DNA of 44,051 nt from positions 1 through 44,051 of the forward strand of contig JABINZ010000219.1 in NCBI GenBank assembly GCA_018698135.1, written 5' to 3'. The position numbers were made by a program, and so were the translations under genes. Under the pieces are notes generated by a model. It saw only the letters and a list, made by a program, of their open reading frames with translations. It did no database searches and was not told the DNA's origin. Each line of letters opens with the position of its first letter. Positions within the stretch are counted from its first letter, which is position 1. Source of the DNA: Bacteroidota bacterium. GTDB lineage: Bacteria; Bacteroidota; Bacteroidia; CAILMK01; JAAYUY01. Of this stretch, positions 315-9,806 are shown piece by piece.

Positions 315-467
315 TTAAAGTTGTGTGATCTTACTAATAAGATTTTTCTCCACTTCTTCATTTTCCTCAACAAATCCATATAATTCACTCCATGAAATAT
401 TTTTTTTAAATATGATTCCTCTTGTTCTACATATAAAATCAAATTCCTGTTGTATATATTGGCTCAT
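315..467 (-). CDS. Small hypothetical protein, 50 aa, overlapping the DUF1643 gene
   Basis: A short ATG-to-TAA reading frame begins inside the 3' end of the DUF1643 gene, overlapping it by 29 nt in another frame, and continues 124 nt past its stop. It starts MSQYIQQEFDFICRTRGIIF and has a charged C-terminal half (EENEEVEKN). No signal peptide or membrane segment is visible. The overlap suggests translational coupling to the upstream gene. It fills most of a stretch that would otherwise be empty. I do not recognise it; the alternative is a chance ORF. Confidence 0.5.
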   Translation of the reverse strand: MSQYIQQEFDFICRTRGIIFKKNISWSELYGFVEENEEVEKNLISKITQL

Positions 468-993
468 TGAGTTGTTCTTTTAAATAATATTTCAAATCAA
501 ATTTTGTAAGTCCGTATTTATAAGCAGCTCTTGAGGGATGTCTGGGATGTCCACTTTGAGTCAATGAGCCAATTTTCAACCATTCAATATCTAAATGATT
601 AATTGAATCATTAATGTCCTTGAGGCATTTTGAGAAAAAAGGTCTAATATTAATGGTTTCACCCCATGCAGATAGAATTGAGCATTTCTTATAGTTACTT
701 AATAATTCACCAATCTTTTCAATATTTTCCTGATGCAGTAATTTATTTAATGTTTTATCCACATTTTCTGGAACAGGAGTCCTTTGTGCATAAAGATTAA
801 GCATTACAAAACTATCAAAACCAGCATTTTTAGCAAATGTCATGGTTTTGGATATAGTCATATCTGGCTTATTCTCATCTGCTGTACTAGGATTCAGTCC
901 TAATACAAATAAAGGATTCAGTCCTTTAGTTCCTAATACAAATCTGGCTTTGTTGTCAGGACTGTTATTATATATTTCCACACTGTATTTCAT
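439..993 (-). CDS. DUF1643 domain-containing protein
   Basis: A 184-aa soluble protein matching DUF1643 along most of its length. Near the start is RFVLG followed by LFVLGLNPSTADENKPDMTI, the hallmark GLNPSTAD...DPTI-type motif. Then come FAKNAGFDSFVMLNLYAQR, an AWGE motif around residue 110, and GSLTQSGHPRHPSR near residue 145. The biochemical function of DUF1643 is not established; members are often found on mobile elements and in accessory regions. The start is ATG preceded on the minus strand by GAAAG. A repeat block (1017-1244) lies just upstream and a 50-codon ORF overlaps the 3' end. Confidence 0.85.
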   Translation of the reverse strand: MKYSVEIYNNSPDNKARFVLGTKGLNPLFVLGLNPSTADENKPDMTISKTMTFAKNAGFDSFVMLNLYAQRTPVPENVDKTLNKLLHQENIEKIGELLSNYKKCSILSAWGETINIRPFFSKCLKDINDSINHLDIEWLKIGSLTQSGHPRHPSRAAYKYGLTKFDLKYYLKEQLNEPIYTTGI

Positions 994-1016
994 CTTTCAC
1001 TTGCTGGTAAGGTTGT

Positions 1017-1244
1017 GGCTCGTATGTTTGATTTCAATTAGTATTAAAAATATAAATTTACATTAAAAAGATTTAACAACAAACCGATATGGGGGTGATT
1101 GGGTCACCGTCTGAATTTCCTTGAATTCGTTTTTGTAAAGATCAACTGATACTTAACGAACCGCCCAGCACTAGAGACCTGTATGTAAAACGATGTGAGA
1201 GGTGTCCTCCGCTTAACGATGGTGGAGTCATCCAATCGATTGTG
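1017..1244 (+). repeat. Intergenic repeat copy A, 3' end resembling group II intron domains V-VI
   Basis: A 228-bp non-coding block that recurs, diverged, at 2286-2526. Identical stretches in the same order are GGCTCGTATGTTTGAT (1017-1032), TATAAATTTACATT (1051-1064), GATATGGGGGT (1086-1096), GAGACCTGTATGTA (1174-1187), TTAACGATGG (1213-1222) and TCGATTGTG (1236-1244). The right part (GAACCGCC, GAGACC, GTATGTA, GTGAGAGG, then CGATTGTG) resembles the domain V-VI end of bacterial group II introns, but its stems are decayed. It occupies nearly all of the gap between the DUF1643 and GIY-YIG genes. The intron assignment is inference from remembered consensus; the repeat itself is seen directly. 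Confidence 0.65.
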
Positions 1245-1259
1245 CGCTCGTTCTATTAA

Positions 1260-2201
1260 TCAACCTTCCCCACCTTCAGTCATATTTCCAAGAGGGCTGT
1301 GTTCGGAAATATAATTCTTTTCAACCTTTTTGCACTCTCTTCGTATTCCTTCAAAAACTATTTTTTGCTTTACTTTCTTATGATACTTTTGAATGAATTT
1401 GGATTTGAATAAATGAGCTTCATCACTATAAGCACCTCTAATATGTTGCTCAAATCTTTCTTGAGGGTTTGCAGCAATACCAACATAAAAAACAAATAAT
1501 TCACACTCTAAAGTATAGACATAGCAGTATTCTTCATCATTAGCACTCTCGCCTTCATCTACTTGTAATATCTCTAATTCCCTTTCATACAATGACATTT
1601 CTGTGGCGTTCATCTCGTATTCTTTAGTAATGAAATTATCGAGCCTATCCAATAATTCATTTCCTGGCATTAATAACGACATTATTTTTTGATATAGCTC
1701 CTCTGTTTCCTCTGCTTTAATTTTTAATAGATTAGGATGTTCAATATAAAATTTCCAACCCAACCTGTCGTATCCTGAATTTTGAAAAAAATCTTGTTTT
1801 GAGTTATAAATTTCATTCCACAAGGAACAAATTTTATGATTCCATATCTGATATTCATTTAAAAAGGTCTTTACAATGTTTTTATCAATGCAATACCTTG
1901 CATATGAACGATGTACTTCAGTTCTATCAGGGTGATAAGTCAATTGAGATATTATCTTTTTTGTAAGCTTTTCTTTAAATGAGATACACTTCTTATAAAC
2001 TTCAATTGCTCTATTTTGTAGGGATGGTGGTGGTGAGTGTTTACAATATTCAACCAATAGTTCATTGGTTTTATAATTTTCCATGATGTCAGAAATTCTT
2101 TTAAAATCAGGATACATCTCACGCCATTCGTCAAAGTGTCCAAGTACCTCTTTCCGCTCAGTTTCTAAATCGTCTAATAGTTTTCGTGTATCATCAGTCA
2201 T
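1260..2201 (-). CDS. GIY-YIG nuclease-domain protein with helical N-terminal region
   Basis: A 313-aa protein with two parts. Residues 1 to about 220 are charged and mostly helical, without a domain I recognise. Residues from about 224 to the end form a GIY-YIG domain. The two tyrosine signatures are YVYTLE and YVGIA, the catalytic arginine is in ERFEQH, and a glutamate sits in KKVEKNYI. The terminal NMTEGGEG supplies the family Asn and Gly-rich end. GIY-YIG domains cut DNA or RNA using a divalent metal. The key residues look intact, so an active nuclease is plausible. The stop codon lies 15 nt from repeat copy A and the start 84 nt from copy B, giving a module-like layout. Confidence 0.75.
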   Translation of the reverse strand: MTDDTRKLLDDLETERKEVLGHFDEWREMYPDFKRISDIMENYKTNELLVEYCKHSPPPSLQNRAIEVYKKCISFKEKLTKKIISQLTYHPDRTEVHRSYARYCIDKNIVKTFLNEYQIWNHKICSLWNEIYNSKQDFFQNSGYDRLGWKFYIEHPNLLKIKAEETEELYQKIMSLLMPGNELLDRLDNFITKEYEMNATEMSLYERELEILQVDEGESANDEEYCYVYTLECELFVFYVGIAANPQERFEQHIRGAYSDEAHLFKSKFIQKYHKKVKQKIVFEGIRRECKKVEKNYISEHSPLGNMTEGGEG

Positions 2202-2285
2202 TATGCCAATCTATAAATTCATACTTTATTCCTTCCATTCAGTTTCAAGTTTGCACTGTCGCCCATGCATGACCGCTAATGTTTA

Positions 2286-2526
2286 GGCTCGTATGTTTGA
2301 TATTATTAATTGCGAGTATAAATTTACATTTAATAGATGAAACAACAAGCCATAGAAGGGATATGGGGGTAGAAGGACTCAACATCAGAATTTCCTGTAA
2401 TTCATTTTTGTATAAAGAGCAGAATACTGATACCACCTTTCTGAGACCTGTATGTACAGTAGTGGAGTCTATGCTGAAACTCAGGGCAAATTATTTAACG
2501 ATGGCGAAGCCATGTACTCGATTGTG
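2286..2526 (+). repeat. Intergenic repeat copy B, 3' end resembling group II intron domains V-VI
   Basis: The second, diverged copy of the block at 1017-1244, in the same orientation. Shared identical stretches lie at 2286-2301, 2317-2330, 2360-2370, 2443-2456, 2495-2504 and 2518-2526. Here the right part reads ACCACC, then GAGACCTGTATGTA, then GTACTCGATTGTG. The last piece is closer than copy A to the CTACTCGAT ending typical of group II intron domain VI. Like copy A it ends about 10 nt before the stop codon of the next minus-strand gene. No reverse transcriptase is encoded. Confidence 0.65.
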
Positions 2527-2536
2527 TGCAGTGTTT

Positions 2537-3274
2537 TCAGTCCCAATTTTTCAAGTAATTTAATAATTCAGCCATAATATCTTTCCAAATTGTTTGTCTT
2601 AATTCCTTTGGCTTTTCTGTCGGATTTATTTCTTTCATTTTAGCATCTACAATTGCTTCTACCGAAGAAGTCCACGAATTCTCAATATCAATTACTTCAT
2701 TGATTGATAAAAATGCAGCTCTCCTTAAATGATATGTTACATCTGAATGATTTTTATTTTCATTCATAACGTTCTCTAATTGTTCTTTTTGATCATTCCA
2801 CTCTTTAATCCTAACTTCCTTGCCAGAAAGAGCTTTTTTATGTAAATTAATTATTGGAATTAGATGTTCATCATAATAAGCTACATCATTAATGATTTCG
2901 GTCAGCAAGTAAATCTGCCATTTGTATAATAATTTCGAATAATCCGTTCCAACTTTGCAAGACATTAAAAAATTCTTGTAAAAAGCAACTTCAGAATGTT
3001 CTTGATTAACACTAGATTCCTTTGAATTATGATGATTTATAGTTCTAATTAAAAATGCTAACCACAAAGGAAGTCCTAATTTTTCAGGATACAACTCAAA
3101 ATTCTCAATTAAGCAATCAGATTGTTCAAATACTCTTACATTGCTTAAAAGTTTTTCAGCAATTTCAGTAGGACTCTTTGGAATCAGTTTCTTTTCTGTC
3201 CATATTTTTAAATTTTTTAAATGAATATCTTTTTGATTTGCATCATTATGAAAAGCTAATAATCTTGATTCCAT
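2537..3274 (-). CDS. Hypothetical protein, 245 aa
   Basis: I do not recognise this protein. It is soluble, charged and mostly helical, with several conserved-looking tryptophans (LKIWTEKK, LPLWLAFLIRT, LLYKWQIYLLTE, IENSWTSS, TIWKDIM). No catalytic motif, signal peptide or clear membrane segment is visible. I chose the ATG at 3274 (MESRLLAFH), which follows an A-rich stretch; a GTG eight codons upstream (3298) is possible but weaker. It lies between repeat copy B and the promoter region of the AAA+ cluster, transcribed away from that cluster, and looks like a single-gene accessory module. Confidence 0.65.
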   Translation of the reverse strand: MESRLLAFHNDANQKDIHLKNLKIWTEKKLIPKSPTEIAEKLLSNVRVFEQSDCLIENFELYPEKLGLPLWLAFLIRTINHHNSKESSVNQEHSEVAFYKNFLMSCKVGTDYSKLLYKWQIYLLTEIINDVAYYDEHLIPIINLHKKALSGKEVRIKEWNDQKEQLENVMNENKNHSDVTYHLRRAAFLSINEVIDIENSWTSSVEAIVDAKMKEINPTEKPKELRQTIWKDIMAELLNYLKNWD

Positions 3275-3549
3275 TTTTGTTTTTTTTACTTTGCACACTA
3301 TTGACTATCTGCACCAGTGTAGCATATAATTTATGTACCGAAATAGGTCTAGTAGCTGTTTTCAGTATATTAAGCCATTTTTGTAATAAATAGATTTTTT
3401 ACATAAAGCCATTTCAAATTTACTAATTAATAATTTGATCGCATATTATTGAAAGGACTGTGAGCATGATTATTTTATTCAATCCCTATAATATTCAATC
3501 TTATTTAGCAATTTCAGAAATCAAAATTTAAAGCACACCTTATTTTTAT

Positions 3550-3585
3550 AGCGACATTCTTTGGCGTCCATGACGCTTACTTTTG
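3550..3585 (+). promoter_or_regulatory. Imperfect inverted repeat and -7 element upstream of the AAA+ gene
   Basis: AGCGACAT at 3550-3557 is mirrored by ATGACGCT at 3570-3577 (one mismatch, 12-nt spacer). An inner GCGTC-CAT-GACGC hairpin lies at 3564-3576. The Bacteroidota-type -7 element TACTTTTG follows at 3578-3585, 20 nt before the start codon. The same AGCGACAT half-site forms a perfect inverted repeat before the WYL regulator transcript (6688-6706). Operator function is inferred. The rest of the gap from 3299 to 3549 shows nothing I can name. Confidence 0.4.
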
Positions 3586-3604
3586 TATTAAATTAAAACA
3601 AAGC

Positions 3605-4732
3605 ATGATGTCAACTTATCAAACGGGAAGGTCATATCTTCATACAAAGACACATATTTATAAAAATCGCACTTCAAAAAATAGGTTTAGCGATGTGTTT
3701 ATTGATACAAATGGTTCCTATTTGAATCCACATAATCTTTTTATGGCATATTTCAACACCATTCCAAATTGTATAACTGAAATTGCTATTGATTGTAAAA
3801 AAGCCAGAGTGTGGTTCGAAGATAATTTCTCTGCTGAGATTAAGGAGACTCACTATAATAAAAGATACATAAAAGGTAGTAGACAAGCTGAATTTGACGA
3901 CATATATCATTTAATTTATGAGGATTTAATAGTTTATTTTGATACAAATCAAGATGATACTTACTTCCTATTTAAGAATACCCAAATCCACAAAGTCAAT
4001 GAAATTATTTCTGAGATTAAAAAGATAAAGAAAAGGCGAAGAAATAAATATAAACCTGAGATTTCTTTAATGGTAAATGGAAGTAGTGGGATTGATATTA
4101 AATCATTTAAAGTAACTCAACCTAAGCTTAGTATAAATGATAATTATAATGATGATTTTATTGATGTGCATAAAACAATTACAAATAGACTTTCAAAGAA
4201 AAATGATAAGGGCTTAGTCATTTTGCATGGAAAACCTGGGACAGGAAAAACCTCTTATATTCGTTACCTCATTACAAAAATTAAGAAACATGTAATTTTT
4301 TTGCCCCCGAATATGGCTGCTGCTATTTCAAATCCCAACTTGATATCTTTACTTATTGACAATCCAAATTCAATTTTTGTTATAGAAGACGCAGAGAACA
4401 TTGTTATTGATAGAGAACATAATGGATATTCACCCGTTTCTGCCTTATTGAATATTTCAGATGGTTTACTTTCAGATTGCCTGAACATTCAGATTATTTG
4501 CTCATTCAATACTGACATTTCCAAGGTGGACAGTGCATTGATGCGAAAGGGTAGATTAATTGCAAAATACAATTTCAAAGAGCTGGAAATCCAAAAAGCA
4601 AATGAACTTTCAAAAAAATTGGGATTTAGTTCCAGTTTCGAATCTCCAATGACTTTGACTGAGATTTACAATCAGACTGAAAGAGATTTTCAACAGGCAA
4701 AAAGAAGAAAATCAATTGGTTTTAATGCTTAA
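3605..4732 (+). CDS. AAA+ ATPase
   Basis: A 375-aa protein. Residues 1 to about 185 carry no recognised domain and include a very basic stretch (EIKKIKKRRRNKYK). Residues 190 to 330 form an AAA+ module: Walker A GKPGTGKT at 209-216, Walker B IFVIEDAE at 257-264, sensor-1 region CSFNTD at 299-304 and RKGR at 314-317, where the arginine finger of BCS1-like ATPases falls. These proteins form ring-shaped ATP-driven remodelling machines. The gene opens a same-strand cluster with an unknown protein and a PD-(D/E)XK nuclease, so it may power or gate that nuclease. ATGATG gives two possible starts one codon apart. Confidence 0.8.
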   Translation: MMSTYQTGRSYLHTKTHIYKNRTSKNRFSDVFIDTNGSYLNPHNLFMAYFNTIPNCITEIAIDCKKARVWFEDNFSAEIKETHYNKRYIKGSRQAEFDDIYHLIYEDLIVYFDTNQDDTYFLFKNTQIHKVNEIISEIKKIKKRRRNKYKPEISLMVNGSSGIDIKSFKVTQPKLSINDNYNDDFIDVHKTITNRLSKKNDKGLVILHGKPGTGKTSYIRYLITKIKKHVIFLPPNMAAAISNPNLISLLIDNPNSIFVIEDAENIVIDREHNGYSPVSALLNISDGLLSDCLNIQIICSFNTDISKVDSALMRKGRLIAKYNFKELEIQKANELSKKLGFSSSFESPMTLTEIYNQTERDFQQAKRRKSIGFNA

Positions 4733-4771
4733 ATTCGGGATAATAATCAGAATCTTGAAAACAGGAAATTC

Positions 4772-5359
4772 ATGATTTTAGCGATGGAATTAGAAAAAAT
4801 GAAACATGAGTTTGATATTCCTGAAAAATGGAATGCATTTTTAAAACAAATAGATCAAAAGCAAATACTTGTTAAAGAATGGGTGCTTAAATTTAAAGAG
4901 GAAGCCAGTAACTATTTCAAAACAGTAGATACGGTAAAGGATTGGTCATTTAAAGCTTATGAAGATCAGTACCTGCAATGGTTCTTAACCGAACATGGTG
5001 AAAAATCACTTAGCCTGGCATTTGGAAAATTTGGAAAAGTCGTGTTCTATTGTGATTCTTATGTTTATGACATAAATAAAATTGCTGAATATTTAAAAAC
5101 AGAAAAGTTTAAACCTCTAATAAGTAATGGGATTGATCATCTTACAAATTCAATGTCGCAATCTGGAGCAATGGGCATCAAAAACTTTTCATTTAGCAAT
5201 TCAGCTGATCCAGAATTTGATCCTGATCAGTTTGCCTGGATTGCTGGAAACAGAACAGACATTTTAGTAAAACAAATAGCTGAACAAGTGAATAAATTTC
5301 AGAAAGATGGGGAGATGGTGGAATTACTAAATGAATTAATTAAGTTGACAAAATTATGA
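4772..5359 (+). CDS. Hypothetical protein between AAA+ ATPase and nuclease, 195 aa
   Basis: I do not recognise this protein. It is soluble, with no signal peptide or transmembrane helix. It has a helical N-terminal part (KEWVLKFKEEASNYFK), a central aromatic region (WFLTEHGEKSLSLAFGKFGK, VVFYCDSYVYDI) and a helical C-terminus (MVELLNELIKLTKL). It lies 39 nt after the ATPase and 72 nt before the nuclease on the same strand, so it is probably a third component of one system. Internal methionines at codons 5 and 10 (MELEKMKHE) are alternative starts. Confidence 0.65.
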   Translation: MILAMELEKMKHEFDIPEKWNAFLKQIDQKQILVKEWVLKFKEEASNYFKTVDTVKDWSFKAYEDQYLQWFLTEHGEKSLSLAFGKFGKVVFYCDSYVYDINKIAEYLKTEKFKPLISNGIDHLTNSMSQSGAMGIKNFSFSNSADPEFDPDQFAWIAGNRTDILVKQIAEQVNKFQKDGEMVELLNELIKLTKL

Positions 5360-5431
5360 ATTAAGTATTAAATTGTATGGATTACACAGTCTATCCACTT
5401 TTACATTGTTAAAGATTTAATATGAAATATT

Positions 5432-6607
5432 ATGGATGAAATAACCAAAATTGAAAACCTCCTGATTCAAATAGGAGCAATTAATAAAAGCTATGAAAAA
5501 ATAGCCAAACTCACTGGTGAAAATTTTAATATTTTTGAAGTATTGGGATTAACTACCAATGAGGTTAGAACGCATTCAGCTTTCATTGCAGAACTATTAA
5601 ATCCAAAGGGTTCTCATGATCAAAATGAAGTTTTTTTAAAGCTCTTTTGTGAGCAGTTTAAGATCATTGATTTTGATGTTGAAACTGCATTAGTAGAAAT
5701 TGAAAAGCATACTGGCTTTATAAATGAAGAATATACTGAAGGTGGAAATATCGATATTATTGCTTCAGATGCTAATAATAATGCAATTATAATTGAGAAT
5801 AAAATTTATGCCCCCGATCAAAAAAATCAGCTTCTGCGTTACTTTAACTATGGAAAGAAGAACTGTAAATCTTTTAAAATGTTTTATTTGACACTTTTCA
5901 ATGATGAAACTAATTTGGGGAAAAATGGATTAGAGGAAAATGATTATACAAGCATTTCGTATTCTCATGAGATTTTGACATGGTTAGAGGCTTGTCGAGA
6001 GAAATCAACAAACCATCCTATTCTTCGAGAAACAATTACTCAATATATAAATTTAATCAAAATACTAACAAATCAAACAACAAATACAATTATGAAGGAA
6101 GAAATTTTAGCCAAAATAAAAAATAATAGTGAATATATTAAAGCTTATTTTGAATTAACTAGGTCAGATATACGGGATGGTGTTAATAATCATTTAGTAG
6201 GAGAATTGAAAAAGCAGATGGAGGAATTAGCTGTAGAATTGAAGATTGATTTTGCAGATGATTCTTTACTAAGTAAAAATGGGTTAGGATATTTTACATT
6301 TAAAATTAGAAATTCAACAAAAGGGTTTTATTTAGGATTTGGAAGTTGTGCAGCATATCATAATTTCTTTTTTTTGGTAGATTGTAATGATGAATATAGA
6401 GAAAATTCAAAAAAAGAAGTATGTGAAAGAATAGGTAATAGAGGAAAGGATTTTGATGAAATTTGGATACAAATGTTTGATAACGATATACGATATTGGC
6501 ATAACTCTTATAAACCATGGCATATGATTCAAAATGGTGAAATGAAAGATTATGTTAGGACAAAACTTAAGCATATTATTAGTAGTCTAGACGGATTCGA
6601 TTTATAA
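5432..6607 (+). CDS. PD-(D/E)XK nuclease family protein
   Basis: A 391-aa protein whose first 200 residues match the PD-(D/E)XK nuclease superfamily (PDDEXK_4, PF14281, by motif). It has an acidic/aromatic lead-in (FNIFEVLGLTTNEVRTHSAF), then the core GGNIDIIASDANNNAIIIEN with Asp108 and Glu122 followed by Lys124, and a Gln-containing helix (DQKNQLLRYF). All expected active-site residues are present, so DNA or RNA cleavage is plausible. The C-terminal half (about 205-391) is lysine- and aromatic-rich and unassigned; it may be a sensor or target-binding part. No methyltransferase is nearby, which argues against a classical restriction-modification system. A perfect hairpin lies 81 nt downstream. 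Confidence 0.8.
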   Translation: MDEITKIENLLIQIGAINKSYEKIAKLTGENFNIFEVLGLTTNEVRTHSAFIAELLNPKGSHDQNEVFLKLFCEQFKIIDFDVETALVEIEKHTGFINEEYTEGGNIDIIASDANNNAIIIENKIYAPDQKNQLLRYFNYGKKNCKSFKMFYLTLFNDETNLGKNGLEENDYTSISYSHEILTWLEACREKSTNHPILRETITQYINLIKILTNQTTNTIMKEEILAKIKNNSEYIKAYFELTRSDIRDGVNNHLVGELKKQMEELAVELKIDFADDSLLSKNGLGYFTFKIRNSTKGFYLGFGSCAAYHNFFFLVDCNDEYRENSKKEVCERIGNRGKDFDEIWIQMFDNDIRYWHNSYKPWHMIQNGEMKDYVRTKLKHIISSLDGFDL

Positions 6608-6687
6608 TAGAACCACTTTAAGTATTACTGACTTTATACCTCTTCTGCAAATAGGATTTCACCATAATTCATAAGAAATATTTTAGC

Positions 6688-6723
6688 AGCGACATATTGT
6701 GTCGCTCTAATTGATTATTTTTG
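6688..6723 (+). promoter_or_regulatory. Perfect inverted repeat and -7 element before the acidic protein/WYL pair
   Basis: AGCGACATATTGTGTCGCT (6688-6706) is a perfect 7-bp inverted repeat with a 5-nt centre. Nine nt later comes TATTTTTG (6716-6723), a TAnnTTTG -7 element. The next gene starts 108 nt downstream. The same half-site precedes the AAA+ gene (3550). It could be an operator for the WYL regulator encoded just downstream, or a terminator hairpin for the nuclease gene, since a T-rich tract follows. Confidence 0.45.
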
Positions 6724-6831
6724 TTCCAAAATATATAAAATCTTTGAGAATACTATCCAGAAATATAGCTTCAAATTAATCCACAATGCGATGGCATATA
6801 TTGGAAATAACAAGAAATTAAATAGAAAAAC

Positions 6832-7101
6832 ATGTTTATAGTAAAAGGGAAGAAAATTGACTTCAAAGAAGAACTAACTCAAGTTCGAAAAGAATTTGAA
6901 AAACTTGAAGATGCTGAAAAATATGCTAATGAATATTTGGATGGTTATACGATAACTGATGCAGATACAGGTGAAGGAATTATAGAGCAAGAAGATTCTA
7001 ACGCAATTACAGAAGCCTCTTTGGATAATATGTATCCAGATAGGCACGATAAAGATTTTGACCAAGACCAAATTTCAGGTGAGGACTTTTTTAAGGATTA
7101 G
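6832..7101 (+). CDS. Small acidic protein, 89 aa
   Basis: I do not recognise this protein. It starts MFIVKGKKIDFKEELTQVRK, is lysine/glutamate-rich in the first half, and becomes strongly acidic (DADTGEGIIEQEDSN, then DRHDKDFDQDQISGEDFF). No membrane segment or cysteine is present. It is followed after 9 nt by the WYL regulator, so the two are almost certainly co-transcribed. An acidic partner could act as a DNA mimic, regulator partner or antitoxin-like factor, but that is guesswork from composition and position. Confidence 0.65.
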   Translation: MFIVKGKKIDFKEELTQVRKEFEKLEDAEKYANEYLDGYTITDADTGEGIIEQEDSNAITEASLDNMYPDRHDKDFDQDQISGEDFFKD

Positions 7102-7110
7102 TAATAAATT

Positions 7111-8031
7111 ATGTCAAAACGAGCCTACATATCCCGTTACCTGCTAATTCTTAAAAAGCTGAAGGCAAAGCCATACAGCTCTTATGAAGAATTGCAAAGT
7201 TATATCGCAAATCAGGTTGAGTACTTGCAAATGCAGGATGATACTTTGAAAATTGCCTTTTCAAAACGGACATTGCAAAGGGACATTCGGGAAATCAGCA
7301 ACAATTTTGGAATAGATATCGAATTTTCGAATAAAGAAAAGGGTTATTATATCAGCCAAAGCGAATCAGAAAACATGAATTTCCAGCGAATGATTGAAGC
7401 ATTTGATATGTTTAACTCCCTAAATCTTGCCCAGGATTTAACTCCATATATATTTCTGGAAAAACGTAAACCCCAGGGAACTGAAAATCTTTATGGTTTG
7501 CTACATGCCATAAAAAACAAGTTTCAGATCAAGTTTGAATATCACAAATTTTGGGAAGATATTATAAGTCAAAGAATAACAGAACCATATGCTTTAAAGG
7601 AATATAAGAATCGCTGGTACGTTTTAGCAAAAGACTTGAAAGATAACAATGTAAAAAGCTTTGCTCTCGACCGACTCTCTAACCTTGAAATAACAAAGAA
7701 TACTTTTGAATTCCCCAAAGATTATGATGTTGAAGAAAGTTACCGCCATTGTTTTGGCATTATAAGTCCAGATGAAGGTGATAAACCTGAGGAAATTGTT
7801 CTTTCATTTGATCCATTCCAGGGAAAATACATCAAAACATTGCCACTTCATGAAAGCCAAGAAATATTGGTTGATAATGAAAATGAGCTGAAGGTCAGCC
7901 TTAAATTATACATTACTCATGATTTTATCATGGAATTACTTTCTTTTGGAGAAAATGTGCTTGTTCTTCAACCTGAGTCTTTAATGAATGAAATTAAAGA
8001 TGCTCATTTTAATGCATTTAATTTGTATTGA
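7111..8031 (+). CDS. WYL domain-containing transcriptional regulator
   Basis: A 306-aa protein with an N-terminal winged helix-turn-helix (about residues 1-85; the recognition part includes FSKRTLQRDIREISNNFGID) and a WYL domain (about 135-200; EPYALKEYKNRWYVLAKDLK, then SFALDRLSNLEI). A WCX-type C-terminal extension follows. WYL proteins sense nucleic-acid or nucleotide ligands and often repress phage-defence operons (BrxR and CapW are characterised examples). It lies 9 nt after the acidic protein and downstream of the AAA+/nuclease cluster. Shared AGCGACAT inverted repeats ahead of both transcripts fit it as the local regulator. Confidence 0.85.
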   Translation: MSKRAYISRYLLILKKLKAKPYSSYEELQSYIANQVEYLQMQDDTLKIAFSKRTLQRDIREISNNFGIDIEFSNKEKGYYISQSESENMNFQRMIEAFDMFNSLNLAQDLTPYIFLEKRKPQGTENLYGLLHAIKNKFQIKFEYHKFWEDIISQRITEPYALKEYKNRWYVLAKDLKDNNVKSFALDRLSNLEITKNTFEFPKDYDVEESYRHCFGIISPDEGDKPEEIVLSFDPFQGKYIKTLPLHESQEILVDNENELKVSLKLYITHDFIMELLSFGENVLVLQPESLMNEIKDAHFNAFNLY

Positions 8032-8685
8032 AAGCATACTTAATGCAATGTCATATGAACTATAAAATCACGAATTTTTGCAAAATCGGGGTAGTTATAA
8101 ACTTATAACCCTCATCTATCAATATCTCAACAATCTGAGCAATATCCCGACATATCTTTGACGCAAAAAAGATGATGGATTGGAAAGAAACCTGGTTGGA
8201 ATTGCCAAAAAACAACCAAAACTACTACTTCCGAATGATGGATCATCAAAATTATAAGTATGAATAATTTACCAGAAATATCCAATCACCTTTAGCATTG
8301 TAAAAAGGGTCATGCACAACGCATTTAAACCAAGCTGATTTAAGAACAAAAATCATTTCCTTTAAATTTTAGCAAATTCTTATTGCCAACCTGACTAACT
8401 CAGGAAGCATAACTTTGCTGTAAGATGTGTAATAGCATTTATCATGTATTAAATTCATTATCTGAGTGTTAATTTCAACAGTAATAAAATATTGCACTCA
8501 GATTGTGATGATATTGAAAAATAAATCCTAAATTTGAGTAAAGTTCTTATAATAATAATGTGAAATAATGGTCAGGCCCTTTTTAGGCCCCAAAAAGTAG
8601 CAAAATTGCGTTTCACTAATGTTTCATCTAAAAATTCACAAAGCTTATAAATCACTGATAATTAAACAATAACAGAATATGGTCA
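8032..8685. other. Non-coding right end of the island
   Basis: No convincing gene is seen in this 650-bp stretch. It contains a short palindrome (GTTATAAACTTATAAC near 8091-8106) and a perfect 9-bp inverted repeat ATCTGAGTG (8460-8468) / CACTCAGAT (8495-8503). A 31-codon frame at 8172-8267 (starting MMDWKETWLELPK) is preceded closely by TATCTTTG, but I cannot support it as a gene. The inverted repeats could be recombinase or accessory-factor sites near the attachment end. Confidence 0.4.
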
Positions 8686-8705
8686 GACTCCCCTCTTGGG
8701 CACAA
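8686..8705 (+). other. Probable attachment-site remnant: 3' end of a tRNA-Leu gene
   Basis: GACTCCCCTCTTGGGCACAA reads as the last part of a tRNA-Leu: T-loop end GACT, T-stem 3' strand CCCCT, acceptor 3' strand CTTGGGC and discriminator A. Upstream bases (TATGG in place of AGGGG) do not pair with the T stem, so the rest of the tRNA is absent. A strong terminator follows 10 nt later. This is what remains when an element integrates into a tRNA-Leu and carries its own copy of the 3' end. The intact tRNA should then lie left of the window. Confidence 0.6.
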
Positions 8706-8715
8706 TTTAACTTCT

Positions 8716-8748
8716 AATCCATTCGAAATCAATCGGATGGATTTTTTT
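8716..8748 (+). terminator. Rho-independent terminator
   Basis: AATCCATTCG (8716-8725) pairs with CGGATGGATT (8734-8743) over 10 positions including one G-U, with an 8-nt loop and a run of seven T at 8742-8748. It follows directly on the tRNA-Leu 3' fragment and no protein gene ends nearby, so it is best read as the original terminator of that tRNA. Confidence 0.75.
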
Positions 8749-8851
8749 ATGTCTACTCTTTAGCTTTTCCATTGATACCTATTGTTATTATTAGCTACAT
8801 CTTACTCCATAATAATTAATTGGTTTATTATAAAAATGATAACTTTATTTC

Positions 8852-9262
8852 ATGAAACTTCTCATGTTATTTTGCAGCAATTTTGCATTTGCTACCAAGA
8901 ACAAGGGGCTTGATGATGTGGCTGATTTTTTTGAAGAGAAACAGTTTATGGATGCATTGGTTGGATTTATTCATGTGGAGGAAAAAGATCAGGAAAGACC
9001 AAAACGAATTGAGGATAATTTGGTGAAAAACCTGAAATGGGGAGCTAGAAAAAACAATACGGATACAGTAATCGTTCATTCTTTTGCTCATTTATCAGAC
9101 AGCAAAGCTGAGCCTGAATTCACAAAAAACTTACTAGATAAAGTGACCAAGCGAATGCAAAATGCTGGATTTGATGTTACGCAAACACCATGGGGCTATT
9201 TCTTGGATCTCAATATACAAGCACCCGGAGAATCGTTGGCACGGGTTTTCAAAAGTTTTTAG
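8852..9262 (+). CDS. Stand-alone threonyl-tRNA synthetase editing-domain protein
   Basis: A 136-aa protein that resembles the archaeal-type N-terminal editing domain of threonyl-tRNA synthetase (PF08915), a fold related to D-aminoacyl-tRNA deacylase. Seen features are the N-terminal MKLLMLFCSNFAF strand, the VHSFAHLSDSKAEPEFTKNL block at 75-94, and the end TPWGYFLDLNIQAPGESLAR, which matches the family's PFGW...GHPLS region. It is the right length for the domain alone, with no catalytic or anticodon-binding part. The likely role is hydrolysis of mischarged (Ser or D-amino acid) tRNA in the cytoplasm. It is the first gene right of the island boundary. Confidence 0.75.
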   Translation: MKLLMLFCSNFAFATKNKGLDDVADFFEEKQFMDALVGFIHVEEKDQERPKRIEDNLVKNLKWGARKNNTDTVIVHSFAHLSDSKAEPEFTKNLLDKVTKRMQNAGFDVTQTPWGYFLDLNIQAPGESLARVFKSF

Positions 9263-9365
9263 TGAGGATTACAATTGCTGACTTCTGCATGAATGGATTT
9301 CTCAAATAAATTATGTTGCCAACTTAGCCTTGTTTAACACTTAACAAGTGCAATCTATTTCTCTC

Positions 9366-9806
9366 CTAAAAGCGAACCAAATCAATCAATTTAGCATGCA
9401 TTTCCTTGCCCACCATTTTGGATCCATCTTCAACAATGGCATTGGTTATCGCTTTAATATCATCAGTGTGTTGCCAATGTTTTTGCACTATACTATCATC
9501 CAAATTAGTAAAAGCATAGTTTAAGACAACAGCTGCCAAAACAATATCATCTGCATAGCCCATCGTTCCTGCAAGTGCTTCGGGAAATAAATCAAATGGC
9601 GAAAGAAAATAAGATATGGCAACAGCCAGATTTGCTTTATCTGCAATTTGAACTTCCTTTTCAAGAGACAATTTGCACATGAATTCAAATAACTGTGGTG
9701 TCCATTTTAAATGACGTGCAAACTCACTTTCGTGTCCTTTGTTTTCAAGCCAATAATTAATCCTGATTTGCAATCGATCTACAAAATCATTTTCCTGCTC
9801 TGCCAT
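9366..9806 (-). CDS. YkvA family protein (DUF1232)
   Basis: A 146-aa protein with the DUF1232/YkvA motif in its centre: KANLAVAISYFLSPFDLFPE followed by GYADDIVLAAVVLNYAF. Family members have a short hydrophobic hairpin around the SPxDLxPD motif and are thought to be membrane-associated; the molecular role is unknown. The N-terminus (DFVDRLQIRINYWLENKG) and C-terminus are soluble. The gene is monocistronic and converges on the editing-domain gene. Confidence 0.8.
   Translation of the reverse strand: MAEQENDFVDRLQIRINYWLENKGHESEFARHLKWTPQLFEFMCKLSLEKEVQIADKANLAVAISYFLSPFDLFPEALAGTMGYADDIVLAAVVLNYAFTNLDDSIVQKHWQHTDDIKAITNAIVEDGSKMVGKEMHAKLIDLVRF

Follow-up and report, generated by a model that had tools for sequence, protein, structure and literature searches.

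A putatively WYL-governed five-gene cassette with paired predicted operators and a PD-(D/E)XK nuclease, probably a phage-defence unit, in a Bacteroidota genome

The window (the whole 44,051-nucleotide stretch analysed here) is the entire contig C219 of a 4.2-Mb draft genome (G000). It carries a cassette of five plus-strand ORFs (Table 1), separated in order by gaps of 39, 72, 224 and 9 nt; all five genes of the initial annotation are real and intact. Because the contig begins 3.6 kb upstream of the cassette, any island border on the upstream side is not visible. The description of this island as tRNA-bounded did not hold, as ARAGORN found no tRNA in the window and nothing in it matched Rfam at Rfam thresholds. 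The G+C content is slightly lower in the cassette (0.304) than downstream (0.342). Minus-strand genes for a DUF1643 protein (439-993) and a protein ending in a GIY-YIG domain (1260-2201) adjoin the cassette at the contig end. A free-standing archaeal-type threonyl-tRNA editing domain (8852-9262, plus strand; PF08915, E 9.1e-38) is encoded in this bacterial genome as well.

Table 1. Genes and predicted regulatory sites of the cassette (positions in the window)
Feature	Position	Strand	Basis or context
Operator 1, GCGACATTCTTTGGCGT	3551..3567	+	before ATPase gene
-7 promoter box, TACTTTTG	3578..3585	+	10 nt past operator 1
375-aa AAA+ ATPase, YjoB/Bcs1 type	3605..4732	+	Pfam, sequence search, AlphaFold and Foldseek
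195-aa protein (W195), family adjoining PDDEXK_4 nucleases	4772..5359	+	homologue scan, neighbourhoods
391-aa PDDEXK_4 nuclease, PADLOC candidate PDC-S26	5432..6607	+	Pfam, PADLOC profile, alignment
Operator 2, perfect palindrome, GCGACATATTGTGTCGC	6689..6705	+	before 89-aa/WYL gene pair
-7 promoter box, TATTTTTG	6716..6723	+	10 nt past operator 2
89-aa acidic protein, pI 4.2	6832..7101	+	ORF; homology searches
306-aa WYL/WCX transcription regulator	7111..8031	+	Pfam, PADLOC, sequence search

The first gene encodes an AAA+ protein (PF00004, E 1.8e-10), as originally proposed. The Walker A and B motifs and arginine fingers of an AAA core are present, and the Walker motifs, sensor-1 N302 and R314/R317 are invariant or nearly so in an alignment of 14 homologues. 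A sequence search linked the core to AFG2 and mitochondrial Bcs1, and no membrane helix was seen by eye. The AlphaFold model has pLDDT values of 80-90 in the core and weaker ones, often below 70, in the N-domain. YjoB and Bcs1 were the first 14 Foldseek matches of this model, aligned over most of its length, and VIA-align gave a Z of 15.1 with YjoB (rmsd 7.8 A over 303 residues), with many AAA chains close behind. The best structural matches span N-domain and AAA core, and we take the protein to be a probable soluble YjoB/Bcs1-type ATPase. It differs from that family in its placement in a nuclease-WYL operon and in having relatives in jumbo phages, where such proteins have been named BCS1 (PMC7824862). 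Two viral contigs encode members of the same ATPase family immediately behind a topoisomerase-subunit-like gene (L124, 4584-5834; L125, 4488-5792). Our literature search, with bioRxiv outside its coverage, returned no link of Bcs1 to bacterial defence.

The nuclease belongs to the PDDEXK_4 family (PF14281, E 1e-37). An alignment of 17 homologues shows residues G105, D108, E122 and K124 to be invariant; the D...ExK site is therefore intact, in agreement with the earlier reading. Residues 1-386 match positions 1-382 of the PADLOC profile PDLC04980 (E 1.7e-103), essentially the whole length, and by this match and the intact PD-(D/E)XK residues we classify the enzyme as a member of PDC-S26. The PADLOC check that had been suggested therefore returned a defence label, solely as this candidate, which is a single-gene entry there, whereas the window nuclease is accompanied by an ATPase, the 195-aa protein and a WYL regulator. 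Literature searches found no paper on PDC-S26 or PF14281. Plasmids and viral contigs, considered as a possible origin, held no match to the nuclease or the 195-aa protein. At another locus (L111, 337-1678) a PDDEXK_4 nuclease occurs as two proteins, a short catalytic one and one of 194 aa that matches the C-terminal domain of the long nucleases (E 2.6e-6).

Neither the 195-aa nor the 89-aa protein, both previously called unrecognised, could be assigned to a known family. Profile and database searches identified none for the 195-aa protein, and searches with the 89-aa protein returned neither relatives nor a family. The 195-aa family can nevertheless be placed with PDDEXK_4 nucleases. It is very rare (4 loci in a scan of 84,980 genomes), and such a nuclease lies directly upstream of the relative in 4/4 loci. 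The order in Hymenobacter (L120/L077) is a C5 methyltransferase, identified by its motifs, then a short PDDEXK_4 and the 195-aa relative. The second locus is in Symbiothrix; in Prevotella, which like Hymenobacter belongs to the Bacteroidota, the 195-aa gene is fragmentary. The fourth, in an uncultured bacterium (G004), has a nuclease fragment at the contig edge and a Bcs1-type ATPase two genes on. In Symbiothrix (L121, 4327-6746) a DEDD exonuclease, the short PDDEXK_4 and the 195-aa protein are consecutive, and there is no WYL gene in the sequenced stretch.

The complete nucleases beside the 195-aa relatives are short (255, 297 and 335 aa) and lack the C-terminal domain of the window enzyme. 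Gene order differs too, since the window gene lies upstream of a long-form nuclease and its relatives downstream of short forms. As short nucleases without the C-terminal domain adjoin either these relatives or the 194-aa protein of L111, small partner proteins replacing this domain are a recurring theme. We considered whether the 195-aa protein is itself a copy of that domain; the order of secondary structure elements looks alike, and profile comparison gave no support, the 194-aa protein of L111 being the only one to match the domain. Its AlphaFold model was poor (pLDDT 47) and was discarded, so the putative role of the protein is read from its position.

The last gene encodes the WYL regulator that had been proposed, with clear WYL (E 7.8e-14) and WCX (E 4.6e-9) domains and a weak HTH_11 match (E 0.1). 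Two predicted operators with the consensus GCGACA-N5-TGKCGY are present, each followed at exactly 10 nt by a Bacteroidota -7 box, TAnnTTTG. The first lies ahead of the ATPase, 195-aa and nuclease genes, the second ahead of the 89-aa/WYL pair. There is no third copy of the operator in the 4.2-Mb genome, and the composite of operator and -7 box is still confined to these two places when one mismatch is allowed. Since TAnnTTTG lies at -12 to -5 in Bacteroidota promoters (PMC9723704), the operator spans about -39 to -23. This paired predicted operator-promoter signature is new here.

The same operator-promoter occurs at WYL loci of other Bacteroidia families. A matching operator precedes the ATPase gene in L038, L039, L056 and L060 and a gene for a 132-aa protein in L043. 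With up to 2 mismatches there are 35 operator matches in 40 WYL loci versus 3 in a size-matched set of 40 non-WYL loci, counts from a non-random sample because the loci were partly picked via their proteins. The half-site ranked first among 90 permuted half-sites, with a few permutations near, perhaps through fit to coding sequence. A 5-bp spacer is strongly preferred at WYL loci, and TAnnTTTG stands at exactly +10 from the operator in 21/26 cases. The GCGACA palindrome with a 3-bp spacer is likewise overrepresented at WYL loci (23 vs 7). In 20 selected, mostly WYL-bearing genomes the composite was found at 12 places, of which 11 belong to WYL loci and the last precedes recA, and the reversed composite at none. 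The 17-bp operator by itself is unspecific in G+C-richer genomes, where reversed controls match equally often, whereas the composite is specific. The site before recA, an operator-promoter-like sequence, lies at G611:C252:15932-15966 (L170). No operator was found in IMG/VR. An SOS box was rejected as the source of the palindrome, which differs from the known Bacteroidota SOS boxes GGA-N5-TCC and CTAA-N5-TTAG (PMC8565304).

In the class, 21 of 395 genomes encode the nuclease and 139 the WYL subfamily (counted at E <= 1e-20). Outside the window, a WYL gene lies within 5 kb of the nuclease at 8/20 places (G235, G096, G047, G581, G490, G166, G144 and G057), where about 0.02 would be expected at random positions. 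WYL is present in 12/40 other ATPase loci and the nuclease in 3/40 (L048, L051 and L067). L048, from another family, has the order nuclease-ATPase-DEDD-WYL, and L067 combines ATPase and WYL with a short nuclease truncated where the contig stops. The co-occurrence anticipated by the initial annotation is borne out for ATPase/WYL and nuclease/WYL pairs, which recur in other families, and not for the exact five-gene set, which was found in the window only among the loci compared. As these pairs recur and both promoters share a genome-unique operator, the grouping of genes in the cassette exceeds chance.

Gene content between ATPase and WYL varies among relatives. The nearest ATPase/WYL relatives (L038, 64/72% identity; L039, 61/70%) encode a DEDD exonuclease and a GmrSD-type restriction enzyme there, and L080, whose WYL protein is 73% identical, has an IetA-like AAA+ protein, a DEDD exonuclease and two GmrSD genes. 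L060 pairs the ATPase with a protein read as UDG-like, without a Pfam match, and a 230-aa protein of L051 has a UDG match just under the cut-off. L056 has only ATPase and WYL, and L084 and L088 have nuclease-DEDD-WYL without the window-type ATPase. ATPase and WYL distances co-vary (Mantel p 0.024), as do those of DEDD and WYL (p 0.0014); nuclease and WYL distances do not (Mantel r -0.04). Judged from these comparisons, the nuclease is an exchangeable part of WYL cassettes, and the predicted switch and its site are kept in related bacteria.

By gene content, the cassette is not BREX, CBASS, CRISPR or a complete restriction-modification system, as had been concluded before: the ten proteins encoded at 439-9806 include no BrxC/PglZ, methyltransferase, cyclase or Cas signature. 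The closest cassette relatives, with GmrSD and WYL, resemble the GmrSD type IV restriction found with BREX and BrxR, but the window has PDDEXK_4 instead and no BREX genes were seen in it. The repressor BrxR recognises a pair of inverted repeats, each with a 5-bp spacer, one ahead of its own gene and one ahead of brxA (PMC9122601); CapW represses until infection makes it let go (PMC9122588). The window likewise has a WYL-WCX regulator beside candidate defence genes, and its two predicted inverted-repeat sites, with 5-bp spacers, reproduce the layout at regulator and effector promoters. By this analogy the regulator may work like BrxR/CapW, although it is only distantly related in sequence and operator sequence, -7 geometry and cargo differ. 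Repression of that kind would be the simplest reading; the fixed distance from operator to -7 box would also suit an activator, which is possible.

We consider it reasonably likely that the locus is a locally regulated WYL cassette of two transcription units with a modular nuclease, putatively anti-phage. The WYL protein would bind the operators at both promoters and thereby control its own gene and the 89-aa gene together with the upstream ATPase, 195-aa and nuclease genes. It would most likely repress until infection or damage supplies a WYL ligand, as for CapW and BrxR. The derepressed PDC-S26-type nuclease may then attack incoming foreign DNA or, if all else fails, the host cell itself. 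For this nuclease the 195-aa protein could serve as a separate recognition or activating subunit, and the YjoB/Bcs1-type ATPase may remodel or load some folded protein, perhaps the nuclease complex. The earlier defence assignment, WYL control and gene grouping are supported by the operator common to both promoters, by co-occurrence at other loci and by the candidate label in PADLOC, and the five genes are probably a phage-defence unit.

Whether the parts act together is the main point on which the alternatives differ. It is a real possibility, if short of an even chance, that nuclease, 195-aa protein and ATPase are independent single-gene defences that share only a promoter under WYL control. 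The varying combinations of genes that lie between operator and WYL fit this, as do L056, L084 and L088 and the single-gene status of the PADLOC candidates PDC-S26 and PDC-S48; against it stand the covariation of ATPase and DEDD distances with those of WYL and the finding of the 195-aa family next to PDDEXK_4 nucleases only. The converse, a complex of ATPase, 195-aa protein and nuclease in which AAA+ ATP hydrolysis switches the nuclease on, appears unlikely. The three genes do share one transcription unit and order, ATPase and nuclease meet again in L048, L051 and L067, and AAA+ proteins of other types accompany this nuclease and WYL in L087, L102, L096 and L098 (those of L087 and L102 being IetA-like by clustering with the L080 protein). 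However, few ATPase loci have the nuclease, the ATPase family is known for protein translocases and chaperones rather than DNA motors, and ATPase, nuclease and 195-aa protein each occur without the others. Of the ATP-gated nuclease activity under WYL control first proposed, WYL control is supported; ATP gating is conjecture, because the nuclease is exchangeable and nuclease-WYL occurs without the ATPase and ATPase-WYL without the nuclease.

Two further readings concern origin and purpose. The 195-aa protein and PDDEXK_4 could be the surviving restriction part of a modification system whose methyltransferase is gone. We regard this as improbable: the Hymenobacter order would suit it, but no methyltransferase was seen in the other three 195-aa-family loci, as far as sequenced, and the window nuclease belongs to a different, long subtype. 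Less probable still is a non-defence role in stress or DNA repair, in which WYL would switch the operon on under genotoxic stress in the manner of PafBC or SiwR. WYL proteins that activate damage responses are known (PMC10693628), and the constant spacing and the site before recA are consistent with one; the patchy distribution, the exchange of restriction-type nucleases and the unlike SOS boxes count against it.

The favoured reading is a regulated cassette with a modular nuclease, a putative WYL-controlled defence locus whose parts are ordinary but whose arrangement is unusual, recurs and has clear bounds. More speculatively, and on balance doubtful, this could be a widespread unnamed Bacteroidota architecture in which the frame consists of a YjoB/Bcs1-type ATPase plus a WYL regulator and its operator-promoter, and restriction-type nucleases are swapped in and armed or assembled by the ATPase. 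With the operator-promoter signature one can test directly if defence nucleases are served by a Bcs1-type chaperone, and the orphan 195-aa family gains a testable function. Targets of WYL regulators in Bacteroidota are little described, though WYL is known to mark defence loci; the signature marks cassette borders in raw sequence and predicts which genes of unknown function WYL would control.
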